Assembly (NCBI RefSeq): GCF_019649055.1
Contig: NW_026570224.1
Location: 1,240,001 to 1,304,000 of the forward strand
Length of the DNA: 64,000 nt
Direction of reading: 5' to 3'
Source of the DNA: Paramacrobiotus metropolitanus
Lineage: Eukaryota; Tardigrada; Eutardigrada; Parachela; Macrobiotidae
This document shows positions 24,492-54,007 of this stretch, one piece after another. The notes below the pieces were generated by a model. The model ran no database searches, was not told the DNA's origin, and worked only from the letters and a program-made list of their open reading frames with translations. Both the position numbers and the translations under genes were made by a program. Numbering within the stretch: position 1 is the first letter of the stretch; each line of letters opens with the position of its first letter.

Positions 24492-26280
24492 CGCTGGCGT
24501 TGATGTCCATAGTTTATCGTCGTTTTCACTACTACTTTCTTCTCATTTGGAACGAAACAACCCGGTTGATTGCACACTTTCGTTATGGATGGATTTTGTG
24601 AAAAGGGGGGATGCAGACGCATTTTTGGTAGAAAACGAGATATTCTACGCACCAGATGCTTTAATTGGGGGAAGGAAAATGTGTGTAATTATTTATATGG
24701 TTCGATTATTTAATCTGTTGTGGAACAGCGAACTCTCTCTTACTTTCTCACTTTTCCTGGACAAAGTTATGGACACACAGGGTGGAAGGATTTTGTAGGA
24801 GAATGCTGATCCGGTTGTATGCTTCCCCCGTTGGTTTTACCAAAGTATTCAAGATAAGCCCGAGACTGGATCCGGTTCGTCGTTGTATTCGGATCACATT
24901 ATAGACTGACTGTCTCCCGGGATACTACATTCTTCGTGTGTGCTACGCTGTCCGTGCCTGCCTTACAAAATGTACCTGTTTATTTAATGGAGCAACTACT
25001 GCCATGCACATGCGCCCGGCAAAGAATAGTATCATCTCATGACCGGTTTTTTTTAAAATTGTACATTCGAACGCTTTTAACTCTGGGTATAGCCGTTTTT
25101 AATCATTTGTACATTATGTTTTTGGATTTCTTTTTACCGGGTTCTGTGCATTTTTAATGGATTTTTATTTGCTTTTATGACAGCTTAAGCTTGTGTATGT
25201 TGCTGATATATGACTCTCTTTTTTTATTATTGGTATTTTATATGTTCCCGGTTTTCTCTTACTGATTAGCTCATGTTTCTTTTTGTTCTGTTCTTCCTTT
25301 TTAGACGAGAAGTCTGTATATTATTCCTTTCTTTTTTTAAATAAAGCACTGCAGTATTTGGTACGCACTGTATTTGCAGTATTTGATACGCACTGTAGAT
25401 GCTGTTGATCTGACTTCCCACAGGTGCAAAGCGAAAAACCAGGATAATATCTATAAACAAGAAACAGCTGCGGCTTCGGGTTCAGTTTGGAGTGAATTGT
25501 TACATTAGGAAAGTGCACCGCTGTTGGATGGCATCGAAAGACCGAAAAATGCGGGAAACCCAAATCTGGTTCCCGCAGAATTTCGCCAAACAGTTTATTG
25601 AGTTTAGTTGAATAAACCGTTTGCCGAGGGTGCTTAAAAACTTTAAAAAAAATTTCCCTTTTTTAATATTTTTATGTGTTCATTATGTAAATACAATTTT
25701 CAAAATTCATTTCCATGTGTTTAAAAGTACTACTTAACATCATTAATGCGTGACCGACGTAACCGACAGAAGTCCGTTTTCTTGAACATGGAGGACCCCT
25801 TCGCTTCGGTCAATAATAGCACTACTCTATAATTATAATACTACTCTCTATTAATAAGAATAAGCCTAATAAACGTCAATGATGTGACCTTTAAAGTTTA
25901 AACAAATGCTCCATCCATATTGGTCCAGTGCAGCTTACCTACTCCAATAAATAATCACGAAGCAGACTTTGGCTGTTGTTACAATGCTGTTGTGTAAAAA
26001 CTCCAGGCGTTATACATATTATATAGTACGAAGGATTTAGACGAAGATTTGTAAAACTACAATTCCTTGTCATAATTGTAAGATTAACTAATAAGTACGA
26101 TAATGAAGGTACGAAAGTTTGCATGTATGCATGCTTCAATCGAATAGTCAAATAATGGCAATTGCTTTTTTTTATTCATAAGAGTACAGCACATCGGGAA
26201 CCGATGATATTCACGTTCTTATATGCCGCAGCAATCTGCATAGACATTTTATATTAGGGAGTTTACAAGAGAACCTTATA
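24492..26280. other. Receptor 3' UTR and convergent spacer
   Basis: No coding signal was found. The stretch contains a candidate AATAAA (25340-25345) for the nuclear receptor, a 25-bp tandem duplication (25351-25400), and on the minus strand an AATAAA (plus TTTATT at 26171-26176) about 105 bp beyond the teashirt-like stop. Confidence 0.45.
25351..25400. repeat. 25-bp tandem duplication
   Basis: Two adjacent 25-bp copies begin GCAGTATTTGRTACGCACTG and differ at a few positions. They sit just after a possible polyadenylation signal. Confidence 0.85.
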
Positions 26281-30800: not shown

Positions 30801-32742
30801 TGCTGCTGGCGTTTGTTCCGATCGGAAGCCAGTTCGTAATTCGAAGTTTTCCGCTATCCGTCGGCTTATATGACTTCGTAGTGAACATCAAAATCAAATT
30901 GTACTGTCGAATACATCATCAGAATACAGTAATAAGGTGTACAAATCGCTTATTGTGCGATTTCTTCCTGTGTAACATGTTCAGGTTTCCACACTGCAAA
31001 AGGTTAATCGACCATACATCGGAAAATTTAATTACGAGTATTAAAAGTATCAGCTCAAGTACCATTAGTGCTACTATTGCATAGTGATACAATTTTCCTT
31101 GGATTCACGGTTGCTTTTTTCCGATGGCCAAGTAAAAAATGTACAATGCGATCCATGTTTCTTAGTTTGTAAATGTCTACATATAATTGATAGTTTTAAA
31201 GTTAGTACTTAATTTTAAACATTGTGTGACATTTATAATGCATTTAAATTTTATGGAAAATTTTTTATCTCAAAAATATCAGCACGTAAATACTTTAAAA
31301 ATTCGAAAAAGATATAGTAGTGGTGGATGGTGGTGGACAGTGCTTGCAAAAATGACCCAACTGGATTACTCTGTGGCAACTTCCGTTCGGCGGCACTGCA
31401 CAGTAATAATGCACGGCAGCTTTTTACAAATTTGATAAACTTCTTTACCCTTAGTCCTTACCAGTTTTTGCTTCTGTTTTTTATCAGATTCCCTTTGGTG
31501 TTTCATTTGAACTTGTTACTGGCTGCCGGCATAGGAGCAATGGCCATCCGATATGTACGTAGAAATTACGCAGTGCACCAGCAGTTATATAATATATCTA
31601 TATATACTTCTATAGAGTACGTGTACAGAGTAGCTTTTGAATTTTCCAGTTTCGTTTTTGGATCGTCTGGCTACAACATTAATATTAAATTAACAATACA
31701 GTACAGTATTGAGTACATAATCAGCTCACACCTTGGTTTTACAAGACTTAGGTAAATACTGTATCATAATTCATTCCAGGTAGTACAGCGTTTTTTCGGG
31801 TGAAGTATTTGTTACCTGCTTTTGTTGCATGAGATGTATCAAAAATGAAATCATAAAAAAATTGCTTAAAGGTTGCCTACTTGCTAAATAAAAGTTCGCA
31901 GTGCTTTTTTTGTACATTACTGTATTAACTGATTAATGTAATGCAAGTTGGGATTGCAACTCCCTTTTTGGAGGGGCTTAAGGGTGGGGGTCATTACTTC
32001 GGGAAAAATTGTTATTTCAAAAAAGGGAGATTGCAAAAAGACCCTTCAGTGGGATATTTATTTTGGGAGGGTTTCTAAATTGGGCGGGGTAAATCACTAA
32101 TACGATAGGATACGGTTTCTGAGGGCAGCTTCGATCATTTGCTTATAACCATAATGGAAATTAGATTTTCAGCTTTTCGCTATATTTTTTGTGTTTCGGG
32201 TGTACAGTGTACGGAAATCGAAGGAGTATTATTTAACTGCTACACAACGTGAATTTTCAAAACTAACGGAATGCGCATGCGCAGTTTGCACAACTGCGAC
32301 GCAGTTTTTGGCTAAAATAAAATTTGCTCACAAGTATTGCAAACGATAGCCCGTCGTGCATTCTACTGATGATTACTACAAAGTACTCGTATGAACTGTA
32401 AGAACTGCTGCCAAGCATAATTCAAATAGCTACAAAATCACTTTAAGATGTTGTGCATACAACACTTTAACATAATTTCTTACGCTTAAATACGAGTAAG
32501 AGGATGCATATAAAAATATCTTTACTTTGCTTGGGCTACAGAAAACGTAGTACGTAAAAATATACACTGTTCCTCAAAACCCAGTGCTGTCAGTAAGATA
32601 TTAAATGTTGCAATAATCACTTATGTACAATAAATACCAGAAAAAACCATGTGATTTTTGCGGCGCAAGAGCTCGAGTAAAGCAACCCGCCTGCGCGCTG
32701 CAGATGAATTTTAATTTGCGGTAGTGTTCCAGAAGCGGCATT
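27842..32742. other. Interval without a recognised gene
   Basis: Upstream exons of the teashirt-like gene should lie here or further right, but no C2H2 motif was visible. A 117-codon minus-strand frame (28519-28872) and a plus-strand frame (31327-31755) are open but match nothing I know. The interval also contains an imperfect inverted repeat with G-rich spacer (31954-32036). Confidence 0.4.
31954..32036. repeat. Imperfect inverted repeat with G-rich loop
   Basis: The left arm TTGCAACTCCCTTTTT (31954-31969) is complementary to AAAAAGGGAGATTGCAA ending at 32036, apart from one inserted base. The spacer contains GGAGGGG and GGGTGGGGG runs. It may be a short MITE-like remnant or a structured RNA. 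Confidence 0.6.
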
Positions 32743-44330: not shown

Positions 44331-46507
44331 TTGATTGGTGTAACTTTCGTGTTGGAGAGATGAATCGAAAGGCTAAGTCAAAAGACAGGTGGACCGCACA
44401 GTTGTGGCTTTTTTGTATGAAAGCTGGGGGTATTTTTTGCGTGACGAAATTTTATGGGGTTTTTATTTTGTCTACGCTATTATTTATTCTTTAGTTTATT
44501 ACGTCGTTGACCTGCAAAATTGTTATGTGTTATACTCTGTATTTGAACTAATGACGCTGTACTCTGCTTGCTAGTGCTGTTGAAGCGAAGATCTGCTAAA
44601 ATTGTATCAAAGTTGAACATCTATTGAGTTGGGATTGACTGTTTGCAATAAAGGTTTACGAACCATCTAGTACCATTTATGCACTAGCATTCGTGAACAC
44701 TGAACAAAACAATATAAGTGTACAACATGTATTGTAGCACGGATTTAACACGCTACTTACATATTTCGGAAATCGGAATATATGAAAAAAACAAAGTTAT
44801 CGAACACATTATCGAGATACCGGCGCATCCAGCAAGAATACTGACTGAAACAGCTTCTCCACTAAGTAGGCAGATGAATAATCGCCAACCGGCCCCATTG
44901 CGCCTTACGAATACCTCTACGGAATACCGTGCTTTTGGACGGTTTACGGTTTTGACAAGCCCCATTTTTTTACACCCCATTTACTTGTTTCAAAGTTGAT
45001 TGTTATAAAATATATAGTGATAACTGGGACATCTTTTTTTATATATGTTATTATGTATACAGTAATATTTCCGCATTAAACCTTTGCACCCTTTTTTATA
45101 CCCGCATTTTTTCCATCAAAGATTGCAAGCGTTGCGAAGGACGCTAATTTATAAATCAACGGTTGCTCCGGTCACCGGTGAATCGTCTACAGGGACATCG
45201 GCGTGCCTCACGGATCTTCAAAAGCTGTTTCGCTTTCCAGTTGTCATACTCCTTGCACTTCTCAGCTTTTCGAAAGTTTGAAAATGAAATTTACCGGCAA
45301 TTTGAAGCTGTAATGATATGCTTATTGTATATCTTAATTTCTTAACCTACCGATTTCATAAAATATCACAGTAACCTTTTATAATACTGTTAGTAAATAA
45401 TTATAACTATAGATATTATAAGGCAAGGTTGTAACAAACTGTTACAACCTTGCCTCATAATGGTTATAATTATTTTATTTGAAATAGGAAAAAATTGCAA
45501 ATGGAGGTATGCGGACTCAAAGTGGACATTAATGATTTACATTTACAACGATCAATTAAAGTAAGCTTCGTATAAGTTATAACGTATTTATCGAATGCCA
45601 CTGAACGGTCGTGGCACCGGATTAGGCATGGCGCTTTTCTGCCTTATACCGGACTATAACTGGAGTGTCCTTAATAAATTACGGTTAGGTCCAGGTCCAA
45701 CTGCTTTGGTTTTCCTAGTTACAATAGTAACAATACTCGTATTTTCAGTTACGTATTGGCATTGCTATAGCATACTTACATAGTAGCTTATAATTTATAT
45801 GTAGCATACAGTATCCTTAAAGGTACTTCTCCTTTTTTCCAATCCATGCAGTGGGTTCATTGGGTTGTATGGGCAATCTCCAACTAGCAACGACCTCCCG
45901 GAAAAAATAATCCTATCCTAGCCTATTGCTACTGCATCAGTTTGTGACTTTAGATGGTTATGGGGAGTGGGACTGTGCGACGCGGCACCATATTTCATGA
46001 CGTCCTGACTCCTGACTTACAGGCGACAGCCGACAGGCTAGAGGGCACCGCCGCTAGACGGCATACTTTTAAAAGAAATTTCGCGTTATTTTTCTGGCTG
46101 GCCAGATTCTATGGCCTATTTGTATCCAGACTTGGATATTGGACAACCACAACCTACATAGCTGATATAAACTATTAATAACCTTGAATATTGCATCGTT
46201 TGACCCGTTTCCGGTCCTGGAAGACTAGACAATTAGGTTGTAACTTTGTAAAGCGTCTTCCGCTACACTGGAGGCCACCAACCCTGGCCTGTTCTACTTG
46301 CTACTGTGAGTATGCAAGTGGCTCAGCCCCAACGGTAAAAATAGCCGAAAATGTATCAAATGGGGCAGCCAGCGCTGGATGAAGTCGTTTTGTCTTTTGT
46401 GTATTATACTTGCGCGAGAGAATTACTCTTGCTTAATTGTTTAACATTTGTTCTTTTCTTTTATTTTGAACCATTTTATTATTTTGTTCTGAAAATTCGA
46501 ATGGAAG
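44331..46507. other. Spacer with OSGIN 3' UTR and PRRT-like 5' UTR
   Basis: It contains the AATAAA at 44647-44652 and an 81-bp near-palindromic element (45395-45475). The short open frames match nothing I know. A five-codon upstream frame overlaps the next gene's start. Confidence 0.45.
45395..45475. repeat. 81-bp hairpin element (MITE-like)
   Basis: The inner arms 45421-45436 and 45440-45455 are perfectly complementary over 16 bp with a 3-base loop. The outer arms 45395-45407 and 45463-45475 are perfectly complementary over 13 bp. Partially matching AT-rich sequence with a bulge joins them. This is typical of a tiny inverted-repeat element or a strong structured RNA. Confidence 0.85.
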
Positions 46508-49846: not shown

Positions 49847-52800
49847 ATGCCGGAAATAAAGAACGCAAAAGACGTGCGCCAGGCCTTTGTGGACTTCTTC
49901 GTGGGGAAGGAGCACACATACTGGCACTCGTCCTCTGTGATTCCCCTCGACGATCCCACGTTGCTGTTCACGAATGCCGGCATGAATCAGGTACAGAAGA
50001 TAGAACGTTAGGGATGACCATAGCCTGCGTTCAGTCAACTCCTTGCTTACAGTTTAAACCGATTTTTCTGGGCACCGTCGCTCCCAACAGCGACATGTCC
50101 CGGCTGGTTCGTGCGGTGAACAGCCAGAAATGCATCCGCGCCGGCGGCAAACATAACGATCTGGACGATGTGGGCAAAGACGTCTATCATCATACGTTTT
50201 TTGAAATGTTGGGAACGTGGTCATTTGGAGATTATTTTAAGGTACGTGATGCGTGGCATTCGTTAATCGTTTGTGACGTTTTCAGGGAAATTTGCAGAGT
50301 TCTTGATCTGTTTTGCAGCAAGAAGCTTGTTCTTGGGCTTGGGAGTTCCTCACGGGTTATTTAGGATTGCCAAAAGACCGACTTTATGTAACGTATTTTG
50401 AAGGCAAAAAGGAACTGGGATTAGAGCCCGATAATGAATGTCGCGATATCTGGCTACAACTTGGGTAGGCAAACAAAATATGCCAAATTTTACCGCTGTT
50501 AAGTATAAACTTGTCGTTAGATTGTTTATCGTTAATAAGTATCGTTACTATTGTAGCATTTTTGGTACACTAGTATTAGCCCTTTTAATATTTATTAAAT
50601 TATTTTTTATTTCAATTTTTGAATTGAAAATTTTATTTGAATTTCATATTTTAATATTTTATAATATTTAATAATGTTTTGTTAATGCAGCTGTTTCGTT
50701 ATGATAAATCAGTCATACTGATACATAAGTCATTGTCAGTCTTGCTTCATTTTCTTGAACGATTCTTTACATTGATTCGCTTGTAGTTTGAATCCTTTGG
50801 ATGCATTACTAAATGCGCTCTCGATAGGTTGCCTGCAGATCGTGTGATCCCGTTCAGCATGAAGGAGAACTTTTGGGAAATGGGTGAAACTGGTCCGTGT
50901 GGTCCCTGTTCCGAAATTCACTTTGATAGGATTGGTAACCGGGATGCATCGCAGCTGGTTAACCGTGACGATCCCGATGTGTTGGAAATCTGGAATCTAG
51001 TCTTTATCCAATTCAACCGGTAAGGTTTCTATTGATACTGTAAACCCACATGGGCAGCTTGTGAGAACGAAGGGCTCAGTTGACAATCTTTTGCAGTGAG
51101 CCAGATGGTTCGCTATCGCCTTTGCCGAAAAAACATATCGATACTGGAATGGGTTTAGAGCGCTTGGTGTCTGTTATTCAGAACAAGAGGTCCAACTATG
51201 ACACGGATTTATTCATGCCGATCTTCAAAGCCATCGAAGCGGTACGAATATACAGTACCTCGGTTTTATTGAGCGAAATACTAGTGGCTTCCTTGTGCAG
51301 GTTATTTCATTACATCAAAACTGAATTAAAAAATTATTTCCAGGGTACTGGAACTCGTCCATACTCTGGAAAAGTTGGCGCCGAAGATACGGACAAGATA
51401 GATATGGCTTATCGCGTTGTCGGCGACCACATCCGCACTCTTGTTATTGCATTGTCAGACGGCGGTCGTCCGGATAACGTGGGTCGTGGGTAGGTAAAAC
51501 GATGAGTGTTCATGTCTTTTCTCTTTGTATAGCGCTTTAAATGACCCACAAATGATCTAAATGCAGTTGTCAGGAACTGTAGATCTGTAGATGGAATCTG
51601 ATTCATTCTGTAGTTATGTGCTTCGCCGTATACTGCGCCGCGCCATCCGTTATGCATCCGAAAAACTGAATGCCAAGCCAGGATTTTTGGGAAGCTTGGT
51701 GGAAACTGTCATCCAGCTCCTGGGTGATGCCTTCCCGGAAGTGCGCAAAGACCCTGCGATGGTTAAGTTAACAATCGACAATGAAGAGACACAATTTCTT
51801 CGCACACTCACACGCGGTCGACGCCTTTTGGAGCGCACCATCGGCCAGATGGGTGACGGTAAAGTCTTACCCGGTGACATTGCCTGGAAGCTGTATGATA
51901 CTTACGGCTTCCCAATTGATCTGACCCAGCTTATGGCTGAGGAGAAGGGTCTTTCTGTGGATATGTCCAGTTATGAGGAGGCGAAACAGAAAGCTGTTCT
52001 AGTCTCGCAAGCCCAGAGTGTCGTGGGCATTGCTAAATTGGATCTGGACGTACACGCTATTGGTGCGCTGAAGGACAAGGGTGTTCCGGTGACGGATGAG
52101 ACCCCGAAGTATGCGTATACATATAATAATGGCGTGCCGGCCCCGCAAGTGCGGTATCAGTTCTCGGAAGCCACCGCCACTGTGTTGGCCATCCGAGTGG
52201 AGAAGGGCTTTGTTGAGGAAATGCAGGGTGGAGAGTGTGGACTGATTTTGGATCGCAGTAATTTCTATGCAGAACAGGGTGGACAAATCTTCGACGAGGG
52301 GTTTATCGTTCGTTTGGGTGCTGACGGAAATGAGGTTAGACGCATTATTTTTAAAATTAATTTGAATGAAATTAGAAGGATTTTTCTATGATGTTCCATC
52401 TTTCGGGTCCGAATTTTCCATGTGGACACATTCTCCCTGAGTTAATACCATTACGTAGTCGCCTAAACCCTTGCTTGCATAATTCATGCTATGGAAGCCA
52501 CCGTTTTTTCTTAAATTTTTGCAGGATAACAGTACGGAATTTCAAGTGAGCAATGTCCAAGTGCGTGGCGGATATGTATTGCATACAGGAAAACTAGATG
52601 GAGTATTGAAAGTGGGCGACAAAGTCAAATTGTTTATTGATGAAGTAAGTTTTCGTTAAGGATTTTCATGAAATTCATGTCTTTTAATTATGAATATAAC
52701 GAATATTTCAAAGGAACGGAGAAAGCTGGTTATGAACAACCACACAGGGACGCACATTCTGAACTACGCTCTGCGAACCGTGCTGAGTGAAGATGCCGAT

Positions 52801-54007
52801 CAACGCGGCTCATTGGTAGCTCCGGACCGTTTGCGCTTTGATTTTGCTGCCAATGCTGCCATGACGGTACCACAGATTAAGAAAACAGAAGAGATCGCCC
52901 AAGATGTGATTGGAAAGAACCAGGAAGTCTTTGCCAAATTCGCTCCACTGGCACAAGCTAAAAGCGTGAAGGGACTTCGTGCCATTTTTGACGAGGTAGG
53001 CTTGTTTGTGTTACCTGCCTTGTAAAAACTTAATAATGCAAAACTAGTGATGTACCATCTTTCGGGTCCGAATCGCGTCTGTGGACATTTCTCACTGAAG
53101 TTCTTTGATTTAATATTTATATAGCTGATTGTATTCTGTTAGTTTTTGCTGACATTATGTTTTGTTGTTGCAGACGTATCCCGATCCAGTGCGCATTATC
53201 AGTGTTGGTGTACCGGTTGATGAATTGCTGGCCAATCCTGAAGCCGGTTACGGTTTTCAGACGTCTGTAGAATTTTGTGGTGGCACCCACCTGCAGCGCA
53301 GTGGCCATATTGGTGACTTTGTAATTGTCACCGAGGAGGCCATCGCCAAGGGCATCCGCCGTATTGTGGCTTTGACGGGACCGGAAGCGCAAAATGCTCT
53401 GCAACGTTCCAGCACCTACCGTGCTCGGGTAGACAAAATCCGTGGAGCCAAGAGCTCTCAATACGTTTACAGAACGTTATTAGGAGAATTGAATGCCGTT
53501 TTTGAGGAGTTGGCCCGTTCGACCATTCCAGTGTGGCAAAAAGATGAAATGCAGACGGAATTGACTAACATCAAAAAGGAGCTTGATAAGAAAGATAAAG
53601 AGTCGAAAGCAGAAAAGGCCCAGAAAGCTCTAGAACACGCTAAGGATTTGGTCGGAAAGGAACCGGATTCGAAGATCAGGGTATATCGTTTGGACCTGGA
53701 TAGCAATTCTAAGGCCTTGGATGCGGCTGCCAAGCAAATCCGAAGTGTGGCACCGGATGCCGCTATTATGGTCTTCAGTGCTGACGAGGATGAAGGAAAG
53801 CTGCTCGTTTTGTCGTCAGTAAGCGAGAAGGACGTGGCAAAGGGACTAAAGGCCAACGAATGGGTGCAGCAAATTAGTTCACTGATTGGTGGAAAAGGTG
53901 GAGGCAAGGAATTGTCCGCGCAGGCCACCGGAAGTAACGTGAAGGCTTTGAACCAGGCCATGGAAATGGCTAAGAAATTTGCTGAATTAAAACTGAATGG
54001 ATCTTGA
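49847..54007 (+). CDS. AARS1: Alanyl-tRNA synthetase (cytosolic type)
   Basis: The enzyme charges tRNA-Ala with alanine and edits mischarged Ser/Gly. Ten exons (49847-49990, 50053-50241, 50319-50464, 50828-51019, 51097-51241, 51344-51489, 51614-52334, 52525-52644, 52714-52995, 53174-54007) join in phase to give 972 aa, near the 968 of human AARS1. Class II core: [51 protein letters not shown] and the motif 3 region DTGMGLERL. The editing domain has HTGTH (H611, H615) and CGGTH (C730, H734), which supply its four zinc ligands. The C-terminal region has a Lys-rich coiled coil ([20 protein letters not shown]) and the C-Ala Gly-rich loop [15 protein letters not shown]. No mitochondrial presequence is visible. 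Introns 7 and 9 each carry a candidate box C/D snoRNA. An AATAAA lies at 54345-54350. Confidence 0.95.
52384..52445 (+). ncRNA. Candidate box C/D snoRNA, copy 1 (AARS intron 7)
   Basis: The C box is ATGATGT (52388-52394), a D'-like CCGA is at 52409-52412, and the D box is CTGA (52437-52440). The D box is 84 nt from the 3' splice site, within the usual spacing for intronic box C/D RNAs. The guide CCATCTTTCGGGT (52396-52408) is complementary to the conserved large-subunit rRNA segment GGACCCGAAAGATGG, as I remember it. The N+5 rule from the D'-like box points to the G of ACCCG, which I recall as yeast 25S Gm805 (guide snR39B). The element is short, and the terminal stem is weak. Confidence 0.6.
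53043..53104 (+). ncRNA. Candidate box C/D snoRNA, copy 2 (AARS intron 9)
   Basis: This is a paralogue of the intron-7 element. The C box is GTGATGT (53047-53053), the same guide CCATCTTTCGGGT lies at 53055-53067, the D'-like CCGA at 53068-53071, and the D box CTGA at 53095-53098. The D box is 75 nt from the 3' splice site. A short AACT/AGTT terminal stem is possible. The two copies match in the boxes, guide and the TGTGGACA block, but differ in the linker, which is how functional copies of a snoRNA diverge. Confidence 0.65.

Follow-up and report, generated by a model that had tools for sequence, protein, structure and literature searches.

Two predicted box C/D small nucleolar RNAs in alanyl-tRNA synthetase introns of Paramacrobiotus metropolitanus share a candidate site in 28S rRNA

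A stretch of 64,000 nucleotides (nt) from the tardigrade Paramacrobiotus metropolitanus (assembly GCF_019649055.1, contig NW_026570224.1, positions 1,240,001 to 1,304,000), referred to as the window, contains a gene for alanyl-tRNA synthetase (AlaRS). Introns 7 and 9 of this gene carry two copies of a common element, named copy A and copy B. In all likelihood, judging by their sequences, these introns encode two diverged paralogous box C/D small nucleolar RNAs (snoRNAs) directing 2'-O-methylation of one G in 28S ribosomal RNA (rRNA). An earlier prediction made from the letters of the window (the original prediction) had placed twin C/D candidates in these two introns, and both the candidates and the intron numbering are confirmed here. 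Its interpretation of them as paired intronic snoRNAs aimed at a single G is supported by the boxes, by the pattern of conservation and by the complementarity to 28S rRNA. The strongest single argument is that the two copies diverge only outside the C/D functional elements and nowhere within them. Copies A and B are most likely genuine and belong to a kind of gene that is well known.

Box elements and their conservation in introns 7 and 9

The host gene was identified as AlaRS by its Pfam domains, tRNA-synt_2c (E value, E, of 4.8e-215) together with tRNA_SAD and DHHA1. Coordinates of the gene, the two introns and the box elements are collected in Table 1. Among the nine AlaRS introns the motif RTGATGW is confined to introns 7 and 9, and a bare TGATG is present in intron 2 at 50247. 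As originally described, both copies have a C box of the form RTGATGT, an identical guide that runs into CCGA, and a CTGA D box, and the distance of 75-84 nt from the D box to the 3' splice site was given correctly. A similar layout is seen in both introns, with 53 nt (copy A) and 51 nt (copy B) between the 5' splice site and the C box, and with 53 and 52 nt, respectively, from the start of the C box to the end of the D box. The guide is separated from the C box by one base in copy A and by none in copy B. Two more CTGA motifs occur in copy B at 53125 and 53149, both out of register with copy A.

The arrangement expected of a box C/D RNA, a C box RUGAUGA followed at suitable spacing by a CUGA D box, is found in both copies, with U and not A as the last base of the C box. 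Directly upstream of the D or D' box a guide should show at least 10 nt of complementarity to rRNA, and 14 and 15 nt are present in copies A and B.

Table 1. Positions in the window of the AlaRS gene, the two introns and the predicted snoRNA elements
Feature	Positions	Strand	Remarks
Host gene AlaRS	49847..54007	+	10 exons, 972 aa; joined frame open, stop codon 54005-54007
Intron 7, carries copy A	52335..52524	+	GT...AG ends, frame continues
Copy A, predicted snoRNA	52383..52445	+	about 63 nt; from box positions, ends assumed about 5 nt beyond C/D boxes
Copy A C box ATGATGT	52388..52394	+	
Copy A guide CCATCTTTCGGGTC	52396..52409	+	14 nt complementary to 28S; final C is first base of D'
Copy A D' box CCGA	52409..52412	+	consensus CUGA
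Copy A C' box TGTGGA, weak	52421..52426	+	consensus UGAUGA; within TGTGGACA, 8/8 the same in copies A and B
Copy A D box CTGA	52437..52440	+	84 nt to 3' splice site
Intron 9, carries copy B	52996..53173	+	GT...AG ends, frame continues
Copy B, predicted snoRNA	53042..53103	+	about 62 nt; from box positions, ends assumed
Copy B C box GTGATGT	53047..53053	+	
Copy B guide ACCATCTTTCGGGTC	53054..53068	+	15 nt complementary to 28S; final C is first base of D'
Copy B D' box CCGA	53068..53071	+	
Copy B C' box TGTGGA, weak	53080..53085	+	part of TGTGGACA
Copy B D box CTGA	53095..53098	+	75 nt to 3' splice site

A shared block of roughly 55 nt had been claimed as peculiar to introns 7 and 9. The size is close to the C-to-D span, and the part in common without gaps is 40 nt long (52389-52428 and 53048-53087, 83% identity). 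The longest exact match between introns 7 and 9 is 19 nt (CCATCTTTCGGGTCCGAAT), against a maximum of 12 nt in 1000 dinucleotide-shuffled intron pairs. In a gapped local alignment the two introns score 227, and the maximum in 2000 shuffles is 183. The longer intron 3 also scored high in such alignments (191 with intron 9, 168 with intron 7), and the exact-match test was therefore preferred as the stricter one.

When the two copies are compared in register, identity is complete in the C-box core (6/6), in the guide with D' and the following AAT (19/19), in the C' segment (8/8) and in the D box (4/4), 37/37 in total. The D'-C' spacer has no base in common (0/6), nor does the single position between C box and guide (0/1), and the C'-D spacer is 8 nt long in copy A and 7 nt long in copy B. 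In the 40-nt flanks the best identity over five registers is 16/40 upstream and 15/40 downstream.

A short AT-rich tandem array with a unit of 13/26 nt was observed in AlaRS intron 3 (50602-50662).

Complementarity to 28S rRNA and the predicted site

The 28S sequence was taken from the same genome, from three ribosomal DNA (rDNA) copies (L009, L010 and L011) called by the Rfam family LSU_rRNA_eukarya. Parts of the rDNA are N, and further variants of the sequence may therefore exist. The target stretch reads GTTGAGACCCGAAAGATGGTGAAC in all three copies, with CGTTGAGACCCGAAAGATGGTGAACTAT as its longer context. A k-mer scan against this 28S showed pairing over 14 consecutive nt for copy A (duplex of -27.9 kcal/mol) and over 15 consecutive nt for copy B (-29.6 kcal/mol). 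The match to 28S ends at the edges of the guide, and the C, C' and D boxes beyond it are common to both copies.

The target had originally been given as the 15-mer GGACCCGAAAGATGG. Pairing of the guides with the conserved 28S segment stands, over 14 and 15 nt; the 15-mer itself is absent from the three 28S copies, and its sole occurrences found in the genome are copies A and B themselves. The 28S copies have AGACCCGAAAGATGG (AGACCC) instead. Copy A pairs with 14 of the 15 nt of AGACCCGAAAGATGG, because 28S has A where GGACCCGAAAGATGG begins with G, and the 15 nt of copy B arise from a match that runs one nt further at the end opposite to this mismatch.

By the N+5 rule the predicted site is the G of ACCCG, which lies five bases from D' within GACCC(G)AAAGATGG. 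That the rule picks a G is thus as claimed before, with the first C of D' in its canonical place. The target G (in GACCCGAAAG) is located 1023, 1011 and 1019 nt from the Rfam-called 28S start in L009, L010 and L011, respectively; seen from these distances, the 5' part of 28S varies in length among the three rDNA copies. We take yeast Gm805 with its guide snR39b (25S) to belong to the same conserved segment, and presumably a Drosophila guide exists for the corresponding site. A search of the open literature for snR39b together with G805 returned nothing, and the main text of PMC6182160 contains no mention of 1522, 1524 or SNORD96. In yeast, U is the commonest last base of the guide (PMC5389607, consulted in part), and U is also found here as the last guide base before the C of D'.

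The rRNA letters scanned comprise 1682 distinct 14-mers, from parts of 28S, 5.8S and a short 18S end. By a hand estimate, a chance antisense 14-mer inside the conserved 40-nt block is expected about 2e-4 times. A lone antisense match of 14 nt in the window is not rare, and the case therefore rests on the conserved pair and the box context.

An unrelated 14-mer antisense to 28S (TACTAGATGGTTCG) lies at 44659-44672 on the minus strand, with no C/D boxes nearby by eye and at about the chance level. Matches of 12 to 15 nt antisense to rRNA were also used to look for additional snoRNAs in the window. Around three of them, at 44659 (minus strand), at 24697 (with 24826) and at 31714, no ordered series of C box, guide and D box was seen by eye. 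The window has 17 occurrences of the pattern TGATGN{1,30}CTGA, which is no enrichment over shuffles (mean 14.2), and no tRNA was found in it.

Folding, kink-turns and alternative explanations

Several observations weigh against two functional snoRNAs. The D' (CCGA) and C' (TGTGGA) boxes are off consensus, though conserved in both copies. Neither predicted RNA folds better than shuffled sequences (z of -0.07 and -0.21). Copy A is without a detectable terminal stem, copy B has one of 4 base pairs (AACU/AGUU) which is offset from the C box, and neither copy beats shuffles in this respect. According to PMC6770171 (consulted in part), a snoRNA needs a kink-turn of consensus type, be it terminal or internal; on the same partial source the length of 62-63 nt is unproblematic, and the weak kink-turns are a real question. 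Similar snoRNA isoforms need not share a target site, as stated in the consulted part of a 2026 preprint (PMC13228274), in which no named site could be mapped to this 28S G. About 0.8 antisense rRNA 14-mers are expected by chance on both strands of 64 kb (hand estimate). Within the window the gathering score is attained by no family of Rfam, and none of the matches of a permissive Rfam scan is significant alone, the best being SNORD96 with E 0.12. A genome-wide SNORD96 search ranks copy B sixth of six (E 5.8) and leaves copy A unlisted, and the same loose search is also positive in 8 of the 14 prokaryotic genomes that served as controls.

The terminal stems bear on whether both copies are active. 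It is conceivable that one copy only works as a snoRNA and that the other is left over from a duplication within the gene, and the stem and the longer guide of copy B, next to a copy A in which no such stem is detected, would fit this. A relic is not expected to retain boxes and guide without a single change while the spacer has lost all identity and the flanks agree at no more than 16 of 40 positions, and we regard this explanation as unlikely.

A second alternative concerns the base that is modified. The usual contact between C' and D' in a kink-turn is a U-U pair. In both copies this contact is seemingly replaced by G-C, and a continuous GUCC/GGAC stem overlapping the end of the guide might form, which could set a second register or switch the guide on and off; with two doses in the AlaRS introns, the output would couple the modification of this 28S site to the transcription of a tRNA synthetase. 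We give this reading only a slender chance. The D' box CCGA and such a stem might also move the methylation by a base, for instance to the C that precedes the G, or might allow two sites. The unusual C'/D' is kept in both copies, and the 27-nt D'/C' pieces of both, when folded alone, show GUCCG/UGGAC pairing. Yeast offers a precedent in U18 and snR48, where C'/D' motifs of an unusual form direct two sites (PMC5389607, consulted in part). On the other side, the GUCCG/UGGAC pairing is no better than in shuffles and is not seen when each copy is folded in full. Moreover, the same partial source has the first C of D' largely setting the methylation register, and this C is canonically placed here and leads to the G. 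A different or additional base is accordingly a quite improbable outcome.

A third alternative, very improbable, is that the block does not act as a snoRNA and is either conserved in the introns for another role, for instance as a splicing or antisense-rRNA element, or chance debris of 28S. Antisense rRNA 14-mers do arise by chance at the scale of 64 kb, and neither folding nor terminal stems lend support to a snoRNA. This alternative is countered by a match that stops at the guide edges with shared C, C' and D boxes outside it, and both copies stand in the same intron context.

If copies A and B are both snoRNAs, they would be expressed with the AlaRS transcript. Splicing would be followed by debranching of the introns and trimming to RNAs of about 62-63 nt, which SNU13, NOP56, NOP58 and fibrillarin would protect by assembling into ribonucleoprotein particles on the C/D and C'/D' motifs. 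Pairing of the guide next to D' with 28S, over 14-15 nt, would then lead to 2'-O-methylation of the predicted G.

Known guide families, host genes and further copies

The permissive Rfam scan covered 847 nt and gave four matches from three families, one overlapping match of the same clan being omitted. SNORD96 (RF00055) matches copy B with 23 bits, below its gathering score of 43, and copy A is unlisted for it. TtnuCD19 (RF02295), from Tetrahymena, matches copy A (22.6 bits, E 4.4, gathering score 70). SNORD121A (RF01191) matches both copies with 16.8 and 16.5 bits (E 5.6 and 6.5, gathering score 44).

Each family resembles the copies in part. SNORD96 is a vertebrate snoRNA. Its consensus guide ACCAUCUUUCGGG adjoins D' as in copy B, and the D box aligns too; however, the C box of the model aligns to an upstream stretch and not to GTGATGT, the copies have a smaller length and a guide that follows immediately on the C box, and no counterpart of the model's D-side guide can be recognised in the alignment. 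TtnuCD19 shares with copy A a guide CCAUCUUUCGGG followed by CUGA, but the Tetrahymena guide adjoins the 3'-terminal D box. For SNORD121A, the UGAUGU C box and a UGUGGA C'-like segment align with both copies, whereas the guide differs. The presence of the guide in SNORD96, an animal family, and in a Tetrahymena family suggests that the methylation site may be old.

Since copy B ranks last in the genome-wide search and prokaryote controls also match, the SNORD96 model is no evidence by itself. The other genome-wide matches (six in all at E up to 10, none over the cut-off) were rejected as homologues; four of the six are on C115, one is on C46 and one is copy B. The C115 loci L013, L014 and L015 appear by eye as AT-rich repeats, whose TGATGCTCTGA units mimic C/D models and outrank the candidate in the SNORD96 search. 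The stretches viewed were the match region for L014 and L015, and for L013 about 145 nt beyond the match.

Placement of snoRNAs in several introns of one gene is well established, as are duplicated isoforms. In the fruit fly, snoRNAs are described as often being spread over different introns of a single host gene (PMC5932544, consulted in part). Searches of the open-access literature, to which FlyBase and the main Drosophila atlas are external, returned no paper that describes AlaRS as host of a snoRNA; the word synthetase is absent from the consulted text of PMC5932544 and from PMC4430873. A snoRNA annotation in Drosophila AlaRS may already exist. The present analysis names a translation gene as host of likely guide RNAs. 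Two likely guides beyond the reach of Rfam models are added for a site whose guide sequence is also carried by other Rfam guide families, and diverged paired copies within one gene can thus reveal snoRNAs missed by a covariance library.

Further copies were searched for in the covered part of the genome. With up to three mismatches, CCATCTTTCGGGTCCGAAT occurs at 21 places, compared with 9 for the reversed control pattern. These are the two intron copies, three places in Rfam-called rDNA, one 28S-like fragment on C7 and 15 others; among the places found, the 19-mer is intact in the intron copies alone. No third copy was found in this search, none of the 15 other places keeping the 14-nt guide by its sequence letters, and ATCTTTCGGGNCTGA, in which the D box is canonical, had no match in the genome sequence covered. 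Pattern scans for the same guide among archaea and viruses gave 19 stretches, all of them bacterial by record title, and 4 viral ones, which were taken as chance. The fragment on C7 lies at about 2100-2135 of L012, near 2013104; it reads TTGAGACCCGAAAGATGGTGCACTACGC, carries no Rfam rRNA call and is possibly a piece of rDNA.

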